A DNA stretch of 64,000 nt from Theocolax elegans (lineage: Eukaryota > Arthropoda > Insecta > Hymenoptera > Cerocephalidae): contig CM047427.1 in the NCBI GenBank assembly GCA_026168455.1, positions 87,822,670-87,886,669 on the forward strand. The letters run 5' to 3'. Under the pieces are notes generated by a model that saw nothing but the letters and a program-made list of their open reading frames with translations, did not search any database and was not told the DNA's origin. Below, in pieces: positions 22,885-35,282 of this stretch (positions are counted from its first letter, which is position 1; each line of letters starts with the position of its first letter). The position numbers were made by a program, and so were the translations under genes.

Positions 22885-25077
22885 TATATTTACCATAATT
22901 TTATTACAATATTTATGAATTATTTTTTCGTAAAATAAAATCACATGCGCGTATAGTAATAAGTGTTGCAGAATTTAATATTTTATCTTCCACGGGAAAA
23001 ATAAAATAATTAAGATAATATACATTTGCAATCTGGTTCGCACGTTTTATTATATTTTTCAATATGTATAATATTTTGAAATACAAATTAATGATTTATA
23101 TCGTGCGATTAAAAATGTTTCAGTCGAAACTCCGGACATCAAAGATAAATACGCGTATAGAATATTCTATTCAAAATTAATTAGATCGATATGGTTTTCA
23201 CAAATATAGCTTTATAAGAAAAATTAAAAAGTAAATACACATATTTATTCAACGTTATTTTCTTTATATAAATAAATTTAAATACATACGTCTAACAGTT
23301 AGAGAATCATTCGAATTATCGACTAATAAATCCTGACAGAAAACTAGGTTATAAATCTTAATGATCAAAAGAATATTGACTAAAATGTGTTATAAAAATT
23401 GATGACGAATGAAATTTTGCACAATATAATATGAATTAGATAATATTTTTTGCCGACATTAACTATTATATTATTTAGATTTAATAATACTAAACTGAAC
23501 TGAATATTTTCACTGGATTTCAATAAATTTCTTACAAATTTGAAATTTACCAATAATGTAATTTTTCTAGGATTAGCTGCTAGATATGTTATACATATGC
23601 AGAAATTAATGCATGAAACTTATTACATTTAACACGCTAATTAGATTATAGATAGTTTAAAAATTCAAGACTATAAAAATCCCATATCCAATATCCAATA
23701 TAAAATAAATTAAAATATAAATATTAATAAATAAAGATGTTTGAATAAAAAAAAGTATATAGTATATAGAGACCGCACATAGTTACAAGTGATATTAGGG
23801 GAACGTCACGGGCTCTTGATCGCGCATTCAAATCGCAAGGAGCGGAACATGTTAATGCGACCTGGCACTAGACCTAGTCTAGGTACGTGTGCACGTAGAT
23901 GTGCGGGCGTGTCTGTGTAGTGGTATAGTAGTAGCGCACGTGTAAGTAACGCGCGAACGATCTAACCAGTCGTACGCACATGTCGCGGTGGACTATACCG
24001 CGACGCATACTACGGACAATATACACACGAGATACGCAGACTCTTCACTTTGACCTACATTTCGACTCGCTGCTGCTACGTGGAAAATATTTTTGATCGT
24101 AACTTTTATGAAATGTTGAAAAGTCTTGGCAAGTTATTGCGAATTGTTTCTTTTTTCTTTTCTTTTTTTCTCCTTTCTGTAGATGTCGAAGTGAAGATTT
24201 TCGTCTAGAAATAACTGTATTAATTGTTACTGACGCGTATTTTCTACCGATTTTGTTTAAACAAACGAGGGAAATACTTTTTTTTAAATTTGACGACAAA
24301 TTTTGTATGAGAAAATCCATTAGAGGGTACGCGCGCGTAAATAAGAGTCGGTAATCCCACGATTTTGAAGTTGATTTATACATTTCAATCGCGAACGTCG
24401 AAGTGTAGAAGAGGAGAAGAAAGAGGGAAAGAAGAAAAAAAAAGTAAGGGAACGAAAAATAAGGGAGGGGTGTCGAAATTATAGATTCATCACAAAGGTT
24501 TTCTCCTCATCCCCCTTCAAGTGTGAGTTCGAAAATGAAATTGGCCGTAAATTCCACGAGTTCTTTATCTCTTAATGCAATTCCCTTTTTCCTTCCGAGG
24601 ACGGTACATAGATATTCCACGGGTACCCCAAGAGCCTCTCCGCCGACCACCCACACAATAGATAAGAAATGCTTTCTCATTTTTAAACCTACCCTCTAGT
24701 ATAACCCACTGCTTCCTTTAGATACCTTCGCTATGGAAATTCGACTCGCCGTTCCTTTTTTCGGTATATAACCGCAAGAATCGCAGTCGATTTAAAATCC
24801 GATATGTTGAACGTCAATAAGCCGGAATATTCCTATCACTCGGTATATGTACATATGTACATTCATGGCTATATATACCTTACGATTGGCTATTTCGAAT
24901 GCGTAATATTGAATAACATTTTATTCATATAAAAAAATGTATTACATTCGGTTGGCATTCGCCAAATGAATATTTTATAACGCGTTTAATAAATAAGGTT
25001 GGATCCTCATACTTGCGACTACGAATGAATAAATAATTTTTTTTTATATTATCCTGCTAAAAGTTTCGATACGAACT
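22885..25077. repeat. Large tandem duplication A, copy 1 (about 2.2 kb)
   Basis: It starts at TATATTTACC and ends at GATACGAACT; one base (25078) separates it from copy 2. From 23231 onward it matches copy 2 at an offset of 2207 with one substitution (near 24207) and one homopolymer difference. Bases 22885-23230 differ from copy 2 by many single-base indels. The content is non-coding: an AT-rich part, a CpG-rich module (about 23760-24060) and a purine-rich run (about 24407-24444). The 112-codon minus frame at 24383-24045 is not a recognised protein. Confidence 0.95.
23760..24060. promoter_or_regulatory. CpG-rich module with dyads (within duplication A, copy 1)
   Basis: It holds TACGTG-TG-CACGTA (23884-23897) and an 8-bp hairpin GTCGCGGT/ACCGCGAC with a 7-nt loop (23982-24004), in a segment with many CG dinucleotides. 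The same module recurs at +2207. Promoter or enhancer function is only inferred from composition and symmetry. Confidence 0.3.
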
Positions 25078-25078
25078 C

Positions 25079-27285
25079 TATATTTACCATAATTTTATAC
25101 AATATTATGAATATTTTTTCGTTAAAATAAAATCACATGGCGCGTATAAGATAATTAAGTGTTTGCAGAATTTCAATCTTTTATCTTCCACGGAAAAATA
25201 AAATAATTAAGATAATATACATTTGCCCTCTGGTTCGCACGTTTTATTATATCTTTTCAATATGTATAATATTTTGAAATACAAATTAATGATTTATATT
25301 CGTGCGATTATAAACTGTTTCAGTCGAAACTCCGGACATTCAAAGATTAAATACGCGTTATAGAATATTTCTATTCAAAATTACATTAGATCGGATATGG
25401 TTTTCACAAATATAGCTTTATAGAAAAATTACAAAAGGTAAATACACATATTTATTCAACGTTATTTTCTTTATATAAATAAATTTAAATACATACGTCT
25501 AACAGTTAGAGAATCATTCGAATTATCGACTAATAAATCCTGACAGAAAACTAGGTTATAAATCTTAATGATCAAAAGAATATTGACTAAAATGTGTTAT
25601 AAAAATTGATGACGAATGAAATTTTGCACAATATAATATGAATTAGATAATATTTTTTGCCGACATTAACTATTATATTATTTAGATTTAATAATACTAA
25701 ACTGAACTGAATATTTTCACTGGATTTCAATAAATTTCTTACAAATTTGAAATTTACCAATAATGTAATTTTTCTAGGATTAGCTGCTAGATATGTTATA
25801 CATATGCAGAAATTAATGCATGAAACTTATTACATTTAACACGCTAATTAGATTATAGATAGTTTAAAAATTCAAGACTATAAAAATCCCATATCCAATA
25901 TCCAATATAAAATAAATTAAAATATAAATATTAATAAATAAAGATGTTTGAATAAAAAAAAGTATATAGTATATAGAGACCGCACATAGTTACAAGTGAT
26001 ATTAGGGGAACGTCACGGGCTCTTGATCGCGCATTCAAATCGCAAGGAGCGGAACATGTTAATGCGACCTGGCACTAGACCTAGTCTAGGTACGTGTGCA
26101 CGTAGATGTGCGGGCGTGTCTGTGTAGTGGTATAGTAGTAGCGCACGTGTAAGTAACGCGCGAACGATCTAACCAGTCGTACGCACATGTCGCGGTGGAC
26201 TATACCGCGACGCATACTACGGACAATATACACACGAGATACGCAGACTCTTCACTTTGACCTACATTTCGACTCGCTGCTGCTACGTGGAAAATATTTT
26301 TGATCGTAACTTTTATGAAATGTTGAAAAGTCTTGGCAAGTTATTGCGAATTGTTTCTTTTTTCTTTTCTTTTTTTCTCCTTTCTGTAGATGTCGAAGTG
26401 AAGATTTTGGTCTAGAAATAACTGTATTAATTGTTACTGACGCGTATTTTCTACCGATTTTGTTTAAACAAACGAGGGAAATACTTTTTTTTAAATTTGA
26501 CGACAAATTTTGTATGAGAAAATCCATTAGAGGGTACGCGCGCGTAAATAAGAGTCGGTAATCCCACGATTTTGAAGTTGATTTATACATTTCAATCGCG
26601 AACGTCGAAGTGTAGAAGAGGAGAAGAAAGAGGGAAAGAAGAAAAAAAAAGTAAGGGAACGAAAAATAAGGGAGGGGTGTCGAAATTATAGATTCATCAC
26701 AAAGGTTTTCTCCTCATCCCCCTTCAAGTGTGAGTTCGAAAATGAAATTGGCCGTAAATTCCACGAGTTCTTTATCTCTTAATGCAATTCCCTTTTTCCT
26801 TCCGAGGACGGTACATAGATATTCCACGGGTACCCCAAGAGCCTCTCCGCCGACCACCCACACAATAGATAAGAAATGCTTTCTCATTTTTTAAACCTAC
26901 CCTCTAGTATAACCCACTGCTTCCTTTAGATACCTTCGCTATGGAAATTCGACTCGCCGTTCCTTTTTTCGGTATATAACCGCAAGAATCGCAGTCGATT
27001 TAAAATCCGATATGTTGAACGTCAATAAGCCGGAATATTCCTATCACTCGGTATATGTACATATGTACATTCATGGCTATATATACCTTACGATTGGCTA
27101 TTTCGAATGCGTAATATTGAATAACATTTTATTCATATAAAAAAATGTATTACATTCGGTTGGCATTCGCCAAATGAATATTTTATAACGCGTTTAATAA
27201 ATAAGGTTGGATCCTCATACTTGCGACTACGAATGAATAAATAATTTTTTTTTATATTATCCTGCTAAAAGTTTCGATACGAACT
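25079..27285. repeat. Large tandem duplication A, copy 2 (about 2.2 kb)
   Basis: Direct repeat of 22885-25077 in the same orientation. Its first ~346 bases align only with frequent 1-base insertions and deletions; the remaining ~1.85 kb is essentially identical. The CpG dyads reappear at 26091-26104 and 26189-26211. The minus frame at 26590-26252 is the duplicated shadow of the one in copy 1, with one R-to-P change. Confidence 0.95.
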
Positions 27286-28178
27286 GTTAATTCAATTTAT
27301 AGATTTGCCGAGTACTCGGTTTTTCTTCAATTTCATTTTTACATTTTTATTCCTTTTATTTTATTTTATCTAAAAATGTATCAAAATAATAGATTAAAAG
27401 TTGACATTAAATTAGAGTTGTCGATATGTCCCCTGAAATTATTAATTTTTATAACTTATGTAAAAATGCAATTTAACCTGCAACCAATTGCGTAATCTTG
27501 CATTTAACTAATAGAATTGATAATATTGTCATAGTTAAGTAAATGTAAAAGTGGAAAAATAGGATTAGGAAAAGTTATAGACGGAAAAATAAGACATAGA
27601 AGAGGAGTGACCGAGGTAACCCGACAATAACATACAACCACATTTCAAATAAAGCTGCGGAAGTTAAAACTTGGATAAAGGTGTACATTAAAACTGCGTA
27701 AAGAGCTTGCGGGTACATCCTACGCCTTGGATACTTGGTTTTAAATGCTCAAATAAAACTTCCTCGCGGTACCTATACACGCGTAGATATATATATATAA
27801 ACGATAAAATGCACGGGAATAAGCGGGTAGGTTTTTGCTACTCACGCGCGATCTCCGAAAATTTCGCGGCGGTATCATTAAAAACGGAGTGAGCCAATGG
27901 TATAACGACGCCGCGAAACTTTCCAAGAGGTAAAAGTATACGTATATGCACTCGTAACAAGCAAAGTTCAATGGGCGTACTATGCGAGCCAGCGTTTCAA
28001 TTTTACGTAGACCTTTTTCCCCTTTTTATCATCTATGCGGACTTTTGTTAACACATCGATATTTCAATTGGAAAAAAGGCTACGTTATGAATAATCACGA
28101 GGTAGTGCCATCTACGTGTATATGACTTTAGATTATGCATGAATTAAACATTCGCGAGTTTTTTTGTATCTACAGTTT
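27286..28178. other. Single-copy spacer between the two large duplications
   Basis: AT-rich, with a GC-richer portion near 27700-27930. It contains short opposing frames on both strands but nothing recognisable. Confidence 0.5.
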
Positions 28179-30290
28179 ATATATTATATATACATCAATG
28201 TTTCCGTTTTGTATTATACCGTTAGTTAAGAATATATATGTACAAAGTTGGTAAAGTTCGGATGGAGCTTTTATCAGGTAATGTAAATTAAATTGGATAT
28301 TCTATATCTATATATAAATAGTTCAACGTTTGTTTAGTACATTTGGATAATAGTCGGAAATGTCTCGGATTTCGCTCGCTCATGGCTTAATATTACGTAG
28401 AAACTTTTGTATATTCATTTTCTTAATTTTAATTGATATTTACTAATGTTATTCAGTACTTATCGCCGACTGGTATATGGATTTAATTAATTGTTGTCCC
28501 TTCTTCCTGGCAATTATTTAAACGGATACTTTAAACTAAGGCAGCATTGACTTATACAAAAGATGACTATGATGGTTGCGGGTTTTGGATTGTAGTCGAA
28601 CTTTACGCAGTGATGATCCATATGGAGATAAAATATGAAAAGATCTCATGGGGTTTGATTGACTGGGTTTTAAATCACAAATAATGAGTGAAATAATAAA
28701 AAGAAAAGTTACCATTAACTTTTTTTTAGATTAGGTATAACCTATTTATTATTATAGTTAGACTCTCAAAATGACGTTCATGTGCAAGCTAAGGTGCAAT
28801 AGACATAGTTTTAAAAATATGAGCTCAAATCTGTGAATTCATTAAAAAATTATTGGAAAAGTAAAATTGAAAGACAATCTGATTAGAAAAGAAACTATAA
28901 TCATGTAGCTAACATTTAGATAAAATTTTTGACCATTTTAATTTTTCAAAAAAATTTTTAATTATTTCACGGATTGGAGCTTACTTATTTCTTAAAACTA
29001 CATATATTTCATCTTAATATCGTAACATCTTATAAACTTTATTTAGTTTTTCATTATTTCAATTTATTTGTGAAATGAGACCCATTGCCACAATTTATAT
29101 TAATAAAAGTGAATATTTGCGACAAATGAATATTTTTTAACTATACTACAAATCATCATATATTTGTTGTATGTAAGAAATTTTTCTCTTACAGGAGTTA
29201 TACGTAGTATATTAAAAGTTAATATTATTCACTTCGTCGCAATGATTCACTTTCCTCTGTGTTATTCACGATACTTTCAATGTCCTTCTTTTGATAGACT
29301 ATGTGCACATAGTGATAATCACTTTAAATAAAAAAAATTACGATAATCTAAGTGTATCCATACTTTACTACAAAATATAATACTTTGTTATATACCACTT
29401 ACAAAGTGTAATATATATTAATAAAATTGTACGAGATATTTCTACATACGCGAAATCTTATCAGAGTATCTGCGAAGACTTTGACGCGCAATAAACCAGA
29501 ATCTCATAAAGCAGTCTGATAAACGTATTAAATCACTAACAATCTTCACGAGATTCGAAGGTAACAACTTACAAATGTTATCCATATCGATGTGTGCGTA
29601 AAATAGTAGCTATTGTTTATTCATCTTATATGATACGGATAACGAATAAATCCGTACGTTGCTACGTACTACAAGATCATTATTCAACAACTGTATCAAG
29701 TGTACAGTGTGCTAAATTTATCGATTTATTGAGCGTTATCTCTCTCAGTCTCGCATTATATAAATGTAACCTCTCTGTCATCTAGTTTGTGTACTACTAT
29801 TTGTTATCTGTCGAAAATTTGATCAACTTTGATTTACGAAGTGAATCATTTCCTTTTATGGAAATTCTACGTGGACATCAGCTTTCTTTCCTCGAGTTCG
29901 TAACTTTATTCAAGAATATTACAATTTTAAAATGTATACCGTATTAAACGAATTAAAGAAATAAATGATATTCCAATGGAAAATCCAGAAAGAATCTTAA
30001 TGAATGCAAACAAGAAACCGTCTGTGAAAAGGAATTCTGACGTAAATCAAGATATTCTCTTGTTGGCAAATAGTGTGTATTCTCAATTTCTAAAAGTTCG
30101 ATGGGAAAATGAATTTTACCTCCATTAAAATTGTTTAACCATTTCACGGACTTGTAGCAAATGAACAGTTAAGTATCCTTTTGCGGAAAGAATTTAAAAT
30201 TCTATCTCGAAAGACCAGAGGGAGCGAAGCCAAGTGGATCCGCAAAGAAAAGAAGCTTGCACTTGTAGGTGTGTGATGTATATATATATA
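28179..30290. repeat. Large tandem duplication B, copy 1 (about 2.1 kb)
   Basis: TACATCAATGTTTCCG begins at 28191 here and again at 30291. The copies show no substitutions that I can find. They differ only in homopolymer or dinucleotide length (for example AATATATATG versus AATATATG, AAACTTTTG versus AAACTTTG). All boundaries fall in TA tracts. The content is non-coding and includes a 16-bp perfect palindrome ACTATGTGCACATAGT at 29298-29313. Confidence 0.95.
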
Positions 30291-32385
30291 TACATCAATG
30301 TTTCCGTTTTGTATTATACCGTTAGTTAAGAATATATGTACAAAGTTGGTAAAGTTCGGATGGAGCTTTTATCAGGTAATGTAAATTAAATTGGATATTC
30401 TATATCTATATATAAATAGTTCAACGTTTGTTTAGTACATTTGGATAATAGTCGGAAATGTCTCGGATTTCGCTCGCTCATGGCTTAATATTACGTAGAA
30501 ACTTTGTATATTCATTTTCTTAATTTTAATTGATATTTACTAATGTTATTCAGTACTTATCGCCGACTGGTATATGGATTTAATTAATTGTTGTCCCTTC
30601 TTCCTGGCAATTATTTAAACGGATACTTTAAACTAAGGCAGCATTGACTTATACAAAAGATGACTATGATGGTTGCGGGTTTTGGATTGTAGTCGAACTT
30701 TACGCAGTGATGATCCATATGGAGATAAAATATGAAAAGATCTCATGGGGTTTGATTGACTGGGTTTTAAATCACAAATAATGAGTGAAATAATAAAAAG
30801 AAAGTTACCATTAACTTTTTTTTAGATTAGGTATAACCTATTTATTATTATAGTTAGACTCTCAAAATGACGTTCATGTGCAAGCTAAGGTGCAATAGAC
30901 ATAGTTTTAAAAATATGAGCTCAAATCTGTGAATTCATTAAAAAATTATTGGAAAAGTAAAATTGAAAGACAATCTGATTAGAAAAGAAACTATAATCAT
31001 GTAGCTAACATTTAGATAAAATTTTTGACCATTTTAATTTTTCAAAAAATTTTTAATTATTTCACGGATTGGAGCTTACTTATTTCTTAAAACTACATAT
31101 ATTTCATCTTAATATCGTAACATCTTATAAACTTTATTTAGTTTTTCATTATTTCAATTTATTTGTGAAATGAGACCCATTGCCACAATTTATATTAATA
31201 AAAGTGAATATTTGCGACAAATGAATATTTTTTAACTATACTACAAATCATCATATATTTGTTGTATGTAAGAAATTTTTCTCTTACAGGAGTTATACGT
31301 AGTATATTAAAAGTTAATATTATTCACTTCGTCGCAATGATTCACTTTCCTCTGTGTTATTCACGATACTTTCAATGTCCTTCTTTTGATAGACTATGTG
31401 CACATAGTGATAATCACTTTAAATAAAAAAAATTACGATAATCTAAGTGTATCCATACTTTACTACAAAATATAATACTTTGTTATATACCACTTACAAA
31501 GTGTAATATATATTAATAAAAATTGTACGAGATATTTCTACATACGCGAAATCTTATCAGAGTATCTGCGAAGACTTTGACGCGCAATAAACCAGAATCT
31601 CATAAAGCAGTCTGATAAACGTATTAAATCACTAACAATCTTCACGAGATTCGAAGGTAACAACTTACAAATGTTATCCATATCGATGTGTGCGTAAAAT
31701 AGTAGCTATTGTTTATTCATCTTATATGATACGGATAACGAATAAATCCGTACGTTGCTACGTACTACAAGATCATTATTCAACAACTGTATCAAGTGTA
31801 CAGTGTGCTAAATTTATCGATTTATTGAGCGTTATCTCTCTCAGTCTCGCATTATATAAATGTAACCTCTCTGTCATCTAGTTTGTGTACTACTATTTGT
31901 TATCTGTCGAAAATTTTGATCAACTTTGATTTACGAAGTGAATCATTTCCTTTTATGGAAATTCTACGTGGACATCAGCTTTCTTTCCTCGAGTTCGTAA
32001 CTTTATTCAAGAATATTACAATTTTAAAATGTATACCGTATTAAACGAATTAAAGAAATAAATGATATTCCAATGGAAAATCCAGAAAGAATCTTAATGA
32101 ATGCAAACAAGAAACCGTCTGTGAAAAGGAATTCTGACGTAAATCAAGATATTCTCTTGTTGGCAAATAGTGTGTATTCTCAATTTCTAAAAGTTCGATG
32201 GGAAAATGAATTTTACCTCCATTAAAATTGTTTAACCATTTCACGGACTTGTAGCAAATGAACAGTTAAGTATCCTTTTGCGGAAAGAATTTAAAATTCT
32301 ATCTCGAAAGACCAGAGGGAGCGAAGCCAAGTGGATCCGCAAAGAAAAGAAGCTTGCACTTGTAGGTGTGTGATGTATATATATA
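30291..32385. repeat. Large tandem duplication B, copy 2 (about 2.1 kb)
   Basis: Direct repeat of copy 1. It ends in the (TA)n at about 32373-32392, after which the sequence diverges (ACATATATAGCAG instead of CATCAATG). The two 63-64-codon frames seen in copy 1 recur here unchanged, which is expected from duplication and is not evidence of coding. Confidence 0.95.
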
Positions 32386-32394
32386 TATATACAT

Positions 32395-33110: not shown

Positions 33111-33715
33111 ATTTTACCCCTCTTCTTCATCGAATTGCCATTCGAGCGATATGAAAGTATTTACATAACTGTAAAACTGGCATTACTCTTATTTACCATT
33201 CTTTAATGTCTCGAATTTATGAATCCTTGCCGGTGAATTAAAAATAATTAAATCGCTATAATCTGTAAATTCATTTGATTTATTTGACTAATGAATAACT
33301 GACTAACTAGCTGAAAGTAGTAAGGCAACTAGTTATAAAACAAAATAAAAATTACTATACAAATCGATACTAAAATTTATCGACATCTATACCAATTATT
33401 ATTAATAACGAATATCATCGATTTGGTATAATTAAATTTACTAATTCAGCAGTTTGAATTCTAGGCATTCGTTGATTTCGTAATAAAAGCACTCGACTAT
33501 AATATCGCTGCGATTTCCATTGGGATATCAGGCAAAAACTGTTCATTAGGAAAATTATGAATAAATTCACTAATTATTTAAAGAAAATCAACTTTATGGA
33601 TTAAAAACAATGATAACTGTCATTGTGGATACTAAGATAATCACGTTATAAGGAAAGATTCTACATTTTACATCAAAATATTCAAATAAAGTAAAAACAT
33701 TGATTACATGATACA
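33111..33715. other. AT-rich non-coding stretch
   Basis: No open frame or RNA gene. Its last ~15 bases weakly continue the inverted repeat that follows. Confidence 0.5.
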
Positions 33716-34148
33716 TAAATTTATTGATCTCCACAAGCCAAAGACTATTCCTCACAATTCAGTAAGGCGGACTGTATTTATACCACCTCACCGGAAGAGT
33801 ATTTGGAAAAATACCAAGACGAGGTAAGTCAAAATAAAAATTCAATTGAAATATAAAATTAAATAAAACGGAAAAAGAAAAGAAAAAAATTTTTGTATTT
33901 CGCCCTGAGTATGCCTGGAGGGCTCATCAGTAGAGTCCTGCAACTCAGAGCAAAATCCAAAAAAATTTTTTTTTTCTTTTCCCTTTTTATATAATTTTAT
34001 ACTTCAATTGAATTTTATTTGACTTAGCTTGTATTGGCATTTTTTCAAACACTCATCCGGTGAGGATAATAAAGTGGCTGGTATAAATACAGTCCGCCTT
34101 ACTCAGTTGTCAGGAATAGTCTTTGGCTTGTGGAGATCAATAAATTTA
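33716..34148. mobile_element. Long palindromic repeat element (copy 1 of a hammerhead-bearing family)
   Basis: The left arm (33716-33909) is the imperfect reverse complement of the right arm (33944-34148). Matching blocks include TTATTGATCTCCACAAGCCA and AGTAAGGCGGACTGTATTTA on the left, with their complements on the right. The right arm carries about 11 extra bases (TTTATTA region) before the shared CTCACCGG. A 34-nt loop (33910-33943) separates the arms. On the minus strand the inner left arm and loop form a hammerhead ribozyme core. Homology to the second copy runs on to about 34204. It has no coding capacity, so it would be non-autonomous. An alternative is an inverted Penelope-type terminal repeat. 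Confidence 0.8.
33898..33930 (-). ncRNA. Hammerhead ribozyme core, 3' half (cleavage-site half missing)
   Basis: Read on the minus strand: CUGAUGA (33930-33924), stem II GCCCU (33923-33919), a 12-nt loop, AGGGC (33906-33902), then GAAA (33901-33898) followed by UAC. This matches the invariant hammerhead boxes CUGANGA and GAAA joined by a perfect 5-bp stem II. The strand that should carry the NUH cleavage site and the 5' side of stem I is not found upstream, where the inverted junction lies. It is therefore predicted inactive in cis. Confidence 0.7.
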
Positions 34149-34507
34149 TTTAACATATAACTAATAATGTAAACAAGCAATAACTTCTCGAATTTATCAT
34201 TTTATGGAAATTCACATTTCAATATTATATGGCATTGGATCACAAATATGCTTCCTCTGACAATATTATGACGATAAAGACATTAATTCTTTGTAAGTGC
34301 GTTAGGACCCCAGTAGAAATGGAAACGATTTTTAAAGTAGAAACAAAGCATTTCTAAAAGATCGATAGAAAATTGCTAGTTATGACCCAAAACATGGCTA
34401 TTTCTAACCTCAAACCATTTATGTTTGTTATCGGTTGGTTATATATACCCCATGTTATGCTTCGTCAGAGTGGAGCCGTTTTTCAAAATTTTATATTATT
34501 TCTTTTC
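34149..34507. other. Interval between the two repeat copies
   Basis: The first ~55 bases (to about 34204) are 3' repeat sequence shared with 34869-34924, including CTAATAATGTAAACAAGCAA. The rest is AT-rich with no recognised feature. Confidence 0.6.
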
Positions 34508-34578
34508 TTTGTATCTAGAGACTAGATGCCTAGACTTTACTTATGAGCCCACCAGGCACATTCAGGGCGAAATCCAAA
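34508..34578 (+). ncRNA. Degenerate type III hammerhead ribozyme
   Basis: Elements in order: stem III 5' strand UUUGUAU (34508-34514); C17 at 34515, giving the AUC cleavage triplet; stem I UAGAGACUAG (34516-34525), loop AUGC, CUAGACUUUA (34530-34539), pairing at 9 of 10 positions with one G-U and one A-A; CUUAUGA (34540-34546); stem II GCCC/GGGC (34547-34550 and 34565-34568); GAAA (34569-34572, its last A being 15.1); then UCCAAA to 34578. A15.1 plus UCCAAA pairs with the stem III 5' strand at 6 of 7 positions. The expected CUGAUGA has G5 changed to U, and G5 is essential, so self-cleavage is probably lost. Confidence 0.75.
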
Positions 34579-34634
34579 ATATTTTTTTCTTTTCTTTTTC
34601 CGTTCAATTAATTTTATACTTCAATTTAATATTA

Positions 34635-34832
34635 ATTTTGACTTAGCTTGTCTTTGTCTTCTTTCAAACAATCATCCGGTGAGGTTATTAAAGTGGTTCG
34701 TATAATAATACAGTCCGCCTTACTGAGTTGTGTATTTTGACTTAGCTTGTCTTTGTCTTCTTTCAAACAATCATCCGGTGAGGTTATTAAAGTGGTTCGT
34801 ATAATAATACAGTCCGCCTTACTGAGTTGTGA
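34635..34832. repeat. 99-bp tandem duplication inside the repeat copy
   Basis: Unit 1 (34635-34733) and unit 2 (34734-34832) both run from ATTTTGACTTAGC to CTTACTGAGTTGTG and are identical over about 97 bp. The upstream repeat copy has this segment only once, so the duplication arose within this copy. Confidence 0.93.
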
Positions 34833-34929
34833 GGAATAGTCTTTGGCTTGTGGGGATCAATAAATTCATTTATCATGTATCTAATAATGTAAACAAGCAA
34901 TAAATTCTCAAATTTACTATTTTGTAATA

Positions 34930-35282
34930 TGCACATTTTAATAAAAAAATTGATATTAATATAAACTCTTATATTAAAAAATAGATGATTAAAACTAAGC
35001 TATTTTTAGAGAATATTCGATCGTTAATAGACAACCAAAGTTTCAAGAAGAAGAAACAGAGGAAATAAGTGACCATGGATATAACACAGAATTTACTTAA
35101 ATATCATCCTATTAACAAAATTATCAAGAGAGATAGAGGAAGGTATTAAAAAAAATGAGGAAAAATCTAATTTCCTCAGGGTTCAATGATGTGACATACA
35201 CTTTTAAAGATATTGAGGTCATACACGCATCTTATAATGACGCAAATAGAAGAAGCCGCATTTGAAGCAAAAATTCTTGAGA

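Follow-up and report, generated by a model that had tools for sequence, protein, structure and literature searches.

The DNA considered here is a 64-kb window (64,000 nucleotides of Theocolax elegans contig CM047427.1, the whole stretch being meant wherever the window is named), in which an arrangement of the type III hammerhead ribozyme kind lies on the forward strand inside a short repeat. Three copies of the repeat, called X, Y and Z, are present; copy Z holds the site that had been singled out in an earlier note on this DNA, and the two further copies, Y and X, lying less than 0.9 kb upstream of Z, were overlooked there. The placing of the hammerhead inside a repeat, already proposed in that note, is borne out by the three copies, which occupy 1.3 kb and are pairwise 86-89% identical (Kimura two-parameter distances 0.12-0.15); the repeat unit, as traced with the duplication in Z excluded, measures ~330 nt. 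The features are collected in Table 1.

Hammerhead Motif in the Copies of the Repeat

A base-by-base check of copy Z agrees throughout with the type III order of parts, the stem pair counts, the AUC triplet and the GAAA box as first reported: stems I and II are closed by loops, stem III is open and the NUH triplet precedes stem I; nine of the 10 positions of stem I are paired below an AUGC loop, six of the 7 of stem III (the sole mispair being T x C, 34512 x 34574), and stem II encloses a loop of 14 nt. The decay of G5 is likewise confirmed, the core reading CUUAUGA against the hammerhead consensus CUGANGA, so that Z by itself, with one core base changed, lacks a consensus core box. In copy Y both core boxes, CTGATGA and GAAA, match the type III consensus; copy X begins inside the hammerhead and lacks most of the motif. 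The parts of a complete motif are divided between Z and Y, the differences in core and stems mostly favour the hammerhead, and the comparison suggests that the ancestor of the copies would have had the complete motif.

Table 1: Features of the repeat and of its hammerhead motif (positions within the window).
Feature	Position	Strand	Basis
Copy Z, type III hammerhead arrangement	34508..34578	+	Base-by-base pairing and chance estimate
Z stem III	34508-34514 / 34572-34578	+	
Z cleavage triplet AUC	34513-34515	+	
Z stem I	34516-34525 / 34530-34539	+	
TGCCT, loop I side of possible 5-bp pseudoknot	34527..34531	+	5 contiguous pairs
Altered core box CTTATGA, T at G5 position 34542	34540..34546	+	Pairing and Y-Z comparison
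Z stem II, GCCC/GGGC	34547-34550 / 34565-34568	+	
AGGCA, loop II side of possible pseudoknot	34554..34558	+	Same letters in Y
Z GAAA box, intact	34569-34572	+	
Stretch containing the Z site	34508..34943	+	
Tandem duplication within copy Z	34635..34831	+	
Copy Y, start near hammerhead loop I	33704..33937	-	
Y hammerhead 3' half: intact CTGATGA (33930-33924), stem II GCCC/GGGC, GAAA (33901-33898)	33898..33930	-	
Copy X, head to head with Y, start in loop II; stem II 3' strand and GAAA altered (GAGCAAAA)	33943..34224	+	
Y-X near-palindrome	33704-34160		BLAST

Comparison of Copies Y and Z

Copy Y is stronger evidence for a hammerhead than the Z site alone. The two were compared at 30 sites of the 3' half (5 in proximal stem I, 7 in the core box, 8 in stem II, the GAAA box and 6 in stem III), a set that at first omitted the distal half of stem I; a set of 35 sites takes in all 10 stem I pairs. 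Three differences between Y and Z occur at the 30 sites, each of them falling on an imperfection of Z and correcting it: the G5 position, the single mismatch of stem III and the single G-U pair of proximal stem I are replaced in Y by the consensus base or by a Watson-Crick pair. For Z, 90 single changes are possible, no more than 4 of which would improve its motif, and three random differences would all do so with a probability of 1.8e-5 (2.75e-5 by simulation). At the 35 sites five differences are counted, three of which improve the motif and two (34531 and 34532) worsen it, the probability of at least three improvements being 4e-4. The loops differ as well, loop II at 3 of its 14 sites, and loop I of Y is one base shorter.

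When the 5' half of Z is set against the 3' half of Y, all 11 scored positions pair (G-U allowed), compared with 10 of 11 against its own 3' half. Among the window's other 50-mers, 127,864 in number, not one attains 11/11 with the 5' half of Z; the 36 that do so contain the Z site itself, and in Markov sequences the frequency is 6e-5. The differences between Y and Z are good evidence that the copies descend from a complete hammerhead. We put at about 0.8 the probability that a real type III hammerhead ribozyme has decayed into what is now seen at the site, close to the 5' part of a short repeat that appears not to code for protein. The case illustrates that the comparison of broken copies can reveal a ribozyme lying below the Rfam threshold.

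Loops I and II of Z might also be in contact, UGCCU and AGGCA being able to form five Watson-Crick pairs (-7.2 kcal/mol, stem I taken as 5 bp) in a pseudoknot whose loop I side overlaps the 10-bp stem I in its distal part, so that it could not coexist with the distal 4-bp hairpin. Copy Y retains AGGCA but not TGCCT. Since 5.4% of shuffled loops and 14% of random genomic 14-mers also attain five loop-loop pairs, the contact is weakly indicated and counts as a lead only.

Chance Level, Covariance Models, and Folding

A relaxed type III descriptor was used that asks for CTGANGA with no more than one mismatch, a 4-bp stem II, GAAA, NUH, at least 5/6 pairs in stem III and 5-12 pairs in stem I, where one mismatch is tolerated from 8 pairs upwards. 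It finds a single site in the window, namely Z; in 1668 random 64-kb windows generated by a second-order Markov model it finds six on the two strands, which amounts to a chance rate of ~0.4% per window. The earlier note had held so many matches to be very unlikely by chance in 64 kb. Since the descriptor, which covers one of three hammerhead topologies, was designed after seeing Z, and since many windows may have been read, the count for Z is insufficient to exclude chance, and the site by itself is suggestive, not decisive.

Several further observations weigh against a hammerhead origin. The Rfam covariance-model scan that had been proposed as a check gave nothing that attained gathering score over the whole window and, for Z, no hammerhead match even at E up to 10, the only signal being a subthreshold one of model RF00008 at Y (33892-33954; 17.8 bits, gathering score 48.5); because this threshold is not reached, the claim made here is one of descent from a hammerhead and not of an intact member. 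The predicted folding of 34508-34578 scarcely beats that of shuffled sequences (z -1.10, 22 of 200 shuffles being equally good). The distal part of stem I is worse in Y than in Z, as would be expected if Y was truncated near loop I, an account given after the fact. The ancestry test itself relies on two motif-bearing copies with one inherited history and on a uniform substitution model. Finally, two kinds of support named in the earlier note are found in part: the other copy with CUGAUGA and pairing stems exists in Y as regards CTGATGA, a paired stem II and GAAA, but the stems I and III of Y itself are poor; supporting substitutions exist in that Y corrects Z at proximal stem and core sites, but double compensatory changes between the two motif-bearing copies are absent.

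Proposed Mechanism and Predicted Activity

If the copies descend from a complete hammerhead, the ancestral transcript would have adopted a fold of stems I-III, which the loop I-loop II contact may have helped to stabilise, and would have cut itself between the positions equivalent to 34515 and 34516. The cut would yield an RNA with a 5'-OH starting at stem I, perhaps circularised, which the reverse transcriptase (RT) of another element could have copied back to DNA, a retrozyme-like propagation of which the present X, Y and Z would be dead relics. Homology starts ~8-17 nt (Y) and ~44 nt (X) downstream of the predicted cut, as read by eye from the alignments, and these start points are compatible with copies of cleaved RNA.

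None of the three copies is expected to be active, since Z lacks G5, Y lacks a native 5' half and X lacks most of the motif. In the folding model of 34503-34580 the hammerhead fold (-10.0 kcal/mol) is outdone by an alternative (-16.6 kcal/mol), a hairpin of which holds the cleavage site; in the minimum-energy fold of 34508-34578 stem II is present and stem I largely so, but stem III is missing. The sequence upstream of Y is the inverse of X and pairs with the GAAA side of Y in a long hairpin.

Structure of the Repeat

The near-palindrome of Y and X extends over ~457 nt at ~80% identity, with its centre at ~33932, and the 465 nt spanning it have a fold energy of -259.7 kcal/mol. Copy Z contains a perfect tandem duplication of 98-99 nt that is lacking in X and Y and is apparently far younger than the repeat copies themselves; no additional repeat unit is detectable upstream of Z. 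The flanks of Y-X have no 8-mer in common; those of Z have two, neither of them at a defined end, and chance often produces an alignment like that surrounding one of the two. No pair of long terminal repeats (LTRs) and no 4-bp target-site duplication (TSD) was demonstrated for the repeat, nor, by eye, a primer-binding site (PBS) or polypurine tract (PPT). The repeat is apparently non-coding: of the 30 stop-free frames of the window that were searched, 10 lying no more than 2 kb from the repeat, none has a Pfam match at the curated cut-off.

Comparison with Known Systems

The hammerhead of the Dolichopoda repeat pDo500 is of type I. Like the element described here, pDo500 is an insect repeat bearing a hammerhead, but it is a satellite (PMC2837043). 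Interspersed repeats of Aedes aegypti likewise place a hammerhead on an insect repeated element, and the same source gives pseudoknots for ~40% of its hammerhead collection (PMC3088659). Animal hammerheads are mostly of type I, type III being mostly found in plants and in the circular RNAs infecting them, as well as in some prokaryotic, insect and hepatitis delta virus (HDV)-like cases (PMC7761336, PMC7936874); a type III hammerhead on an animal repeat is an arrangement rarely reported in animals.

The atypical type III hammerheads of termite and toad HDV-like circular RNAs and of termite and dipteran genomes (PMC7936874) have in common with the motif of Z the type III order and a proximal stem I of ~5 bp, and the pairing of their GCC-bearing loop I (GCCR) with a GGC-bearing loop II (YGGC) has a possible equivalent in Z; however, their stem II has 6 bp, compared with 4 bp and a 14-nt loop here, and their helix I is capped by an extra hairpin of ~20 nt, where Z has at most the 4-bp AUGC hairpin. 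The termite genomic motifs are reported as isolated, whereas the present one is borne by a repeat in three copies. Motifs are reported for pseudoobscura, fruit fly, housefly and soldier fly; the hymenopterans, hemipterans and cockroach covered by the structure-based search yielded none, and work in preparation on dipteran motifs is cited (PMC7936874).

In plants, the LTR retrozymes are likewise short repeats that lack coding potential and bear a hammerhead of type III (PMC4918200); the repeat described here differs in being AT-rich, in the absence of a demonstrated LTR pair, PBS, PPT or 4-bp TSD, and in having no known plant link. One review proposes that plant retrozymes possibly arose by horizontal transfer from, for example, bacteria or insects (PMC7761336), and an animal repeat family with a type III hammerhead would make such a link testable. 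It is conceivable, although we regard it as doubtful, that the copies belong to a family of short retroelements of animals, possibly of insects, that has yet to be described and that moves with a hammerhead of type III. Such a family would be for animals what the LTR retrozymes are for plants, and other parts of the genome would hold intact members able to form circles. No published account of the repeat, nor of an insect type III retrozyme, was seen among the open-licence papers searched.

Alternative Explanations

One alternative is that the repeat is the unit of a metazoan non-LTR retrozyme or of a satellite, and that the head-to-tail array of such units no longer exists at this place. The unit size of a few hundred nucleotides and the low GC content would agree with this, both recalling the low-GC invertebrate retrozymes of 170-400 nt; we consider it unlikely, since the known ones have type I hammerheads in tandem units (PMC7229834), whereas the motif here is of type III, copies Y and X stand head to head, the copies are spaced and no more units are detectable upstream of Z.

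A somewhat poorer fit, and an improbable one in our view, is the pseudo-LTR (pLTR), or a fragment of it, of a Penelope-like element (PLE). Several copies do lie close by, one pair of them head to head, and PLE pLTRs are repeated terminal units bearing hammerheads in tandem or partial tandem (PMC6155905, PMC11167929); these hammerheads are, however, reported as minimal type I, usually without helix III (PMC7229834, PMC6155905), as opposed to the type III arrangement with a 7-position stem III found here, and the 30 searched frames contain no Pfam match at cut-off, neither RT nor GIY-YIG, the window's other frames and the rest of the genome not being searched. A further source for the contrasts with retrozymes, PLEs and other small elements is PMC10886601.

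That an AT-rich repeat should have acquired by chance a hammerhead-like arrangement that never cut RNA appears very improbable. The broken core of Z, its failure to match an Rfam hammerhead, the occurrence of the relaxed descriptor in ~0.4% of random windows in a scan that may have taken in many, the commonness of the loop-loop match and the worse distal stem I of Y would all be in keeping with it; against it stand the intact core of a homologous copy, the correction of Z by all three differences at the 30 proximal sites (or the 4e-4 obtained with the whole stem I) and the complete pairing of the Z 5' half with the Y 3' half, equalled by no other 50-mer of the window. The remnant of an integrated deltavirus-like circular RNA can hardly be entertained, for although some of these bear type III hammerheads, the repeat is short and present in three copies, its stem II of 4 bp with a 14-nt loop departs from the 6 bp described, and no Pfam match at cut-off was obtained in the 30 frames, a delta-antigen search not having been made.

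Searches Elsewhere and Other Features of the Window

Scans of IMG/VR and GTDB genome contigs with exact patterns only found no relative of the repeat. Several of the scans gave no match at all. One IMG/VR contig with a pattern match was rejected as chance, the match lying inside an open reading frame that by eye resembles a DNA cytosine methyltransferase, without an Rfam match; 10 further loci from the two collections, matching the repeat over 18-22 nt in the portion of the comparison shown, were also judged chance, their displayed flanks lacking the continuation into stem II and GAAA and Rfam giving one tRNA and no hammerhead among them.

The window has a GC content of 31.2% and bears microsatellites. 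A tandem duplication of 2.2 kb (22885-25077 and 25079-27285, span 22885-27285), with copies 98.7% identical, is either a recent duplication or an assembly artefact; soon after it follows a second one of 2.1 kb (28178-30292 and 30279-32389, span 28178-32389), whose copies are 99.6% identical.
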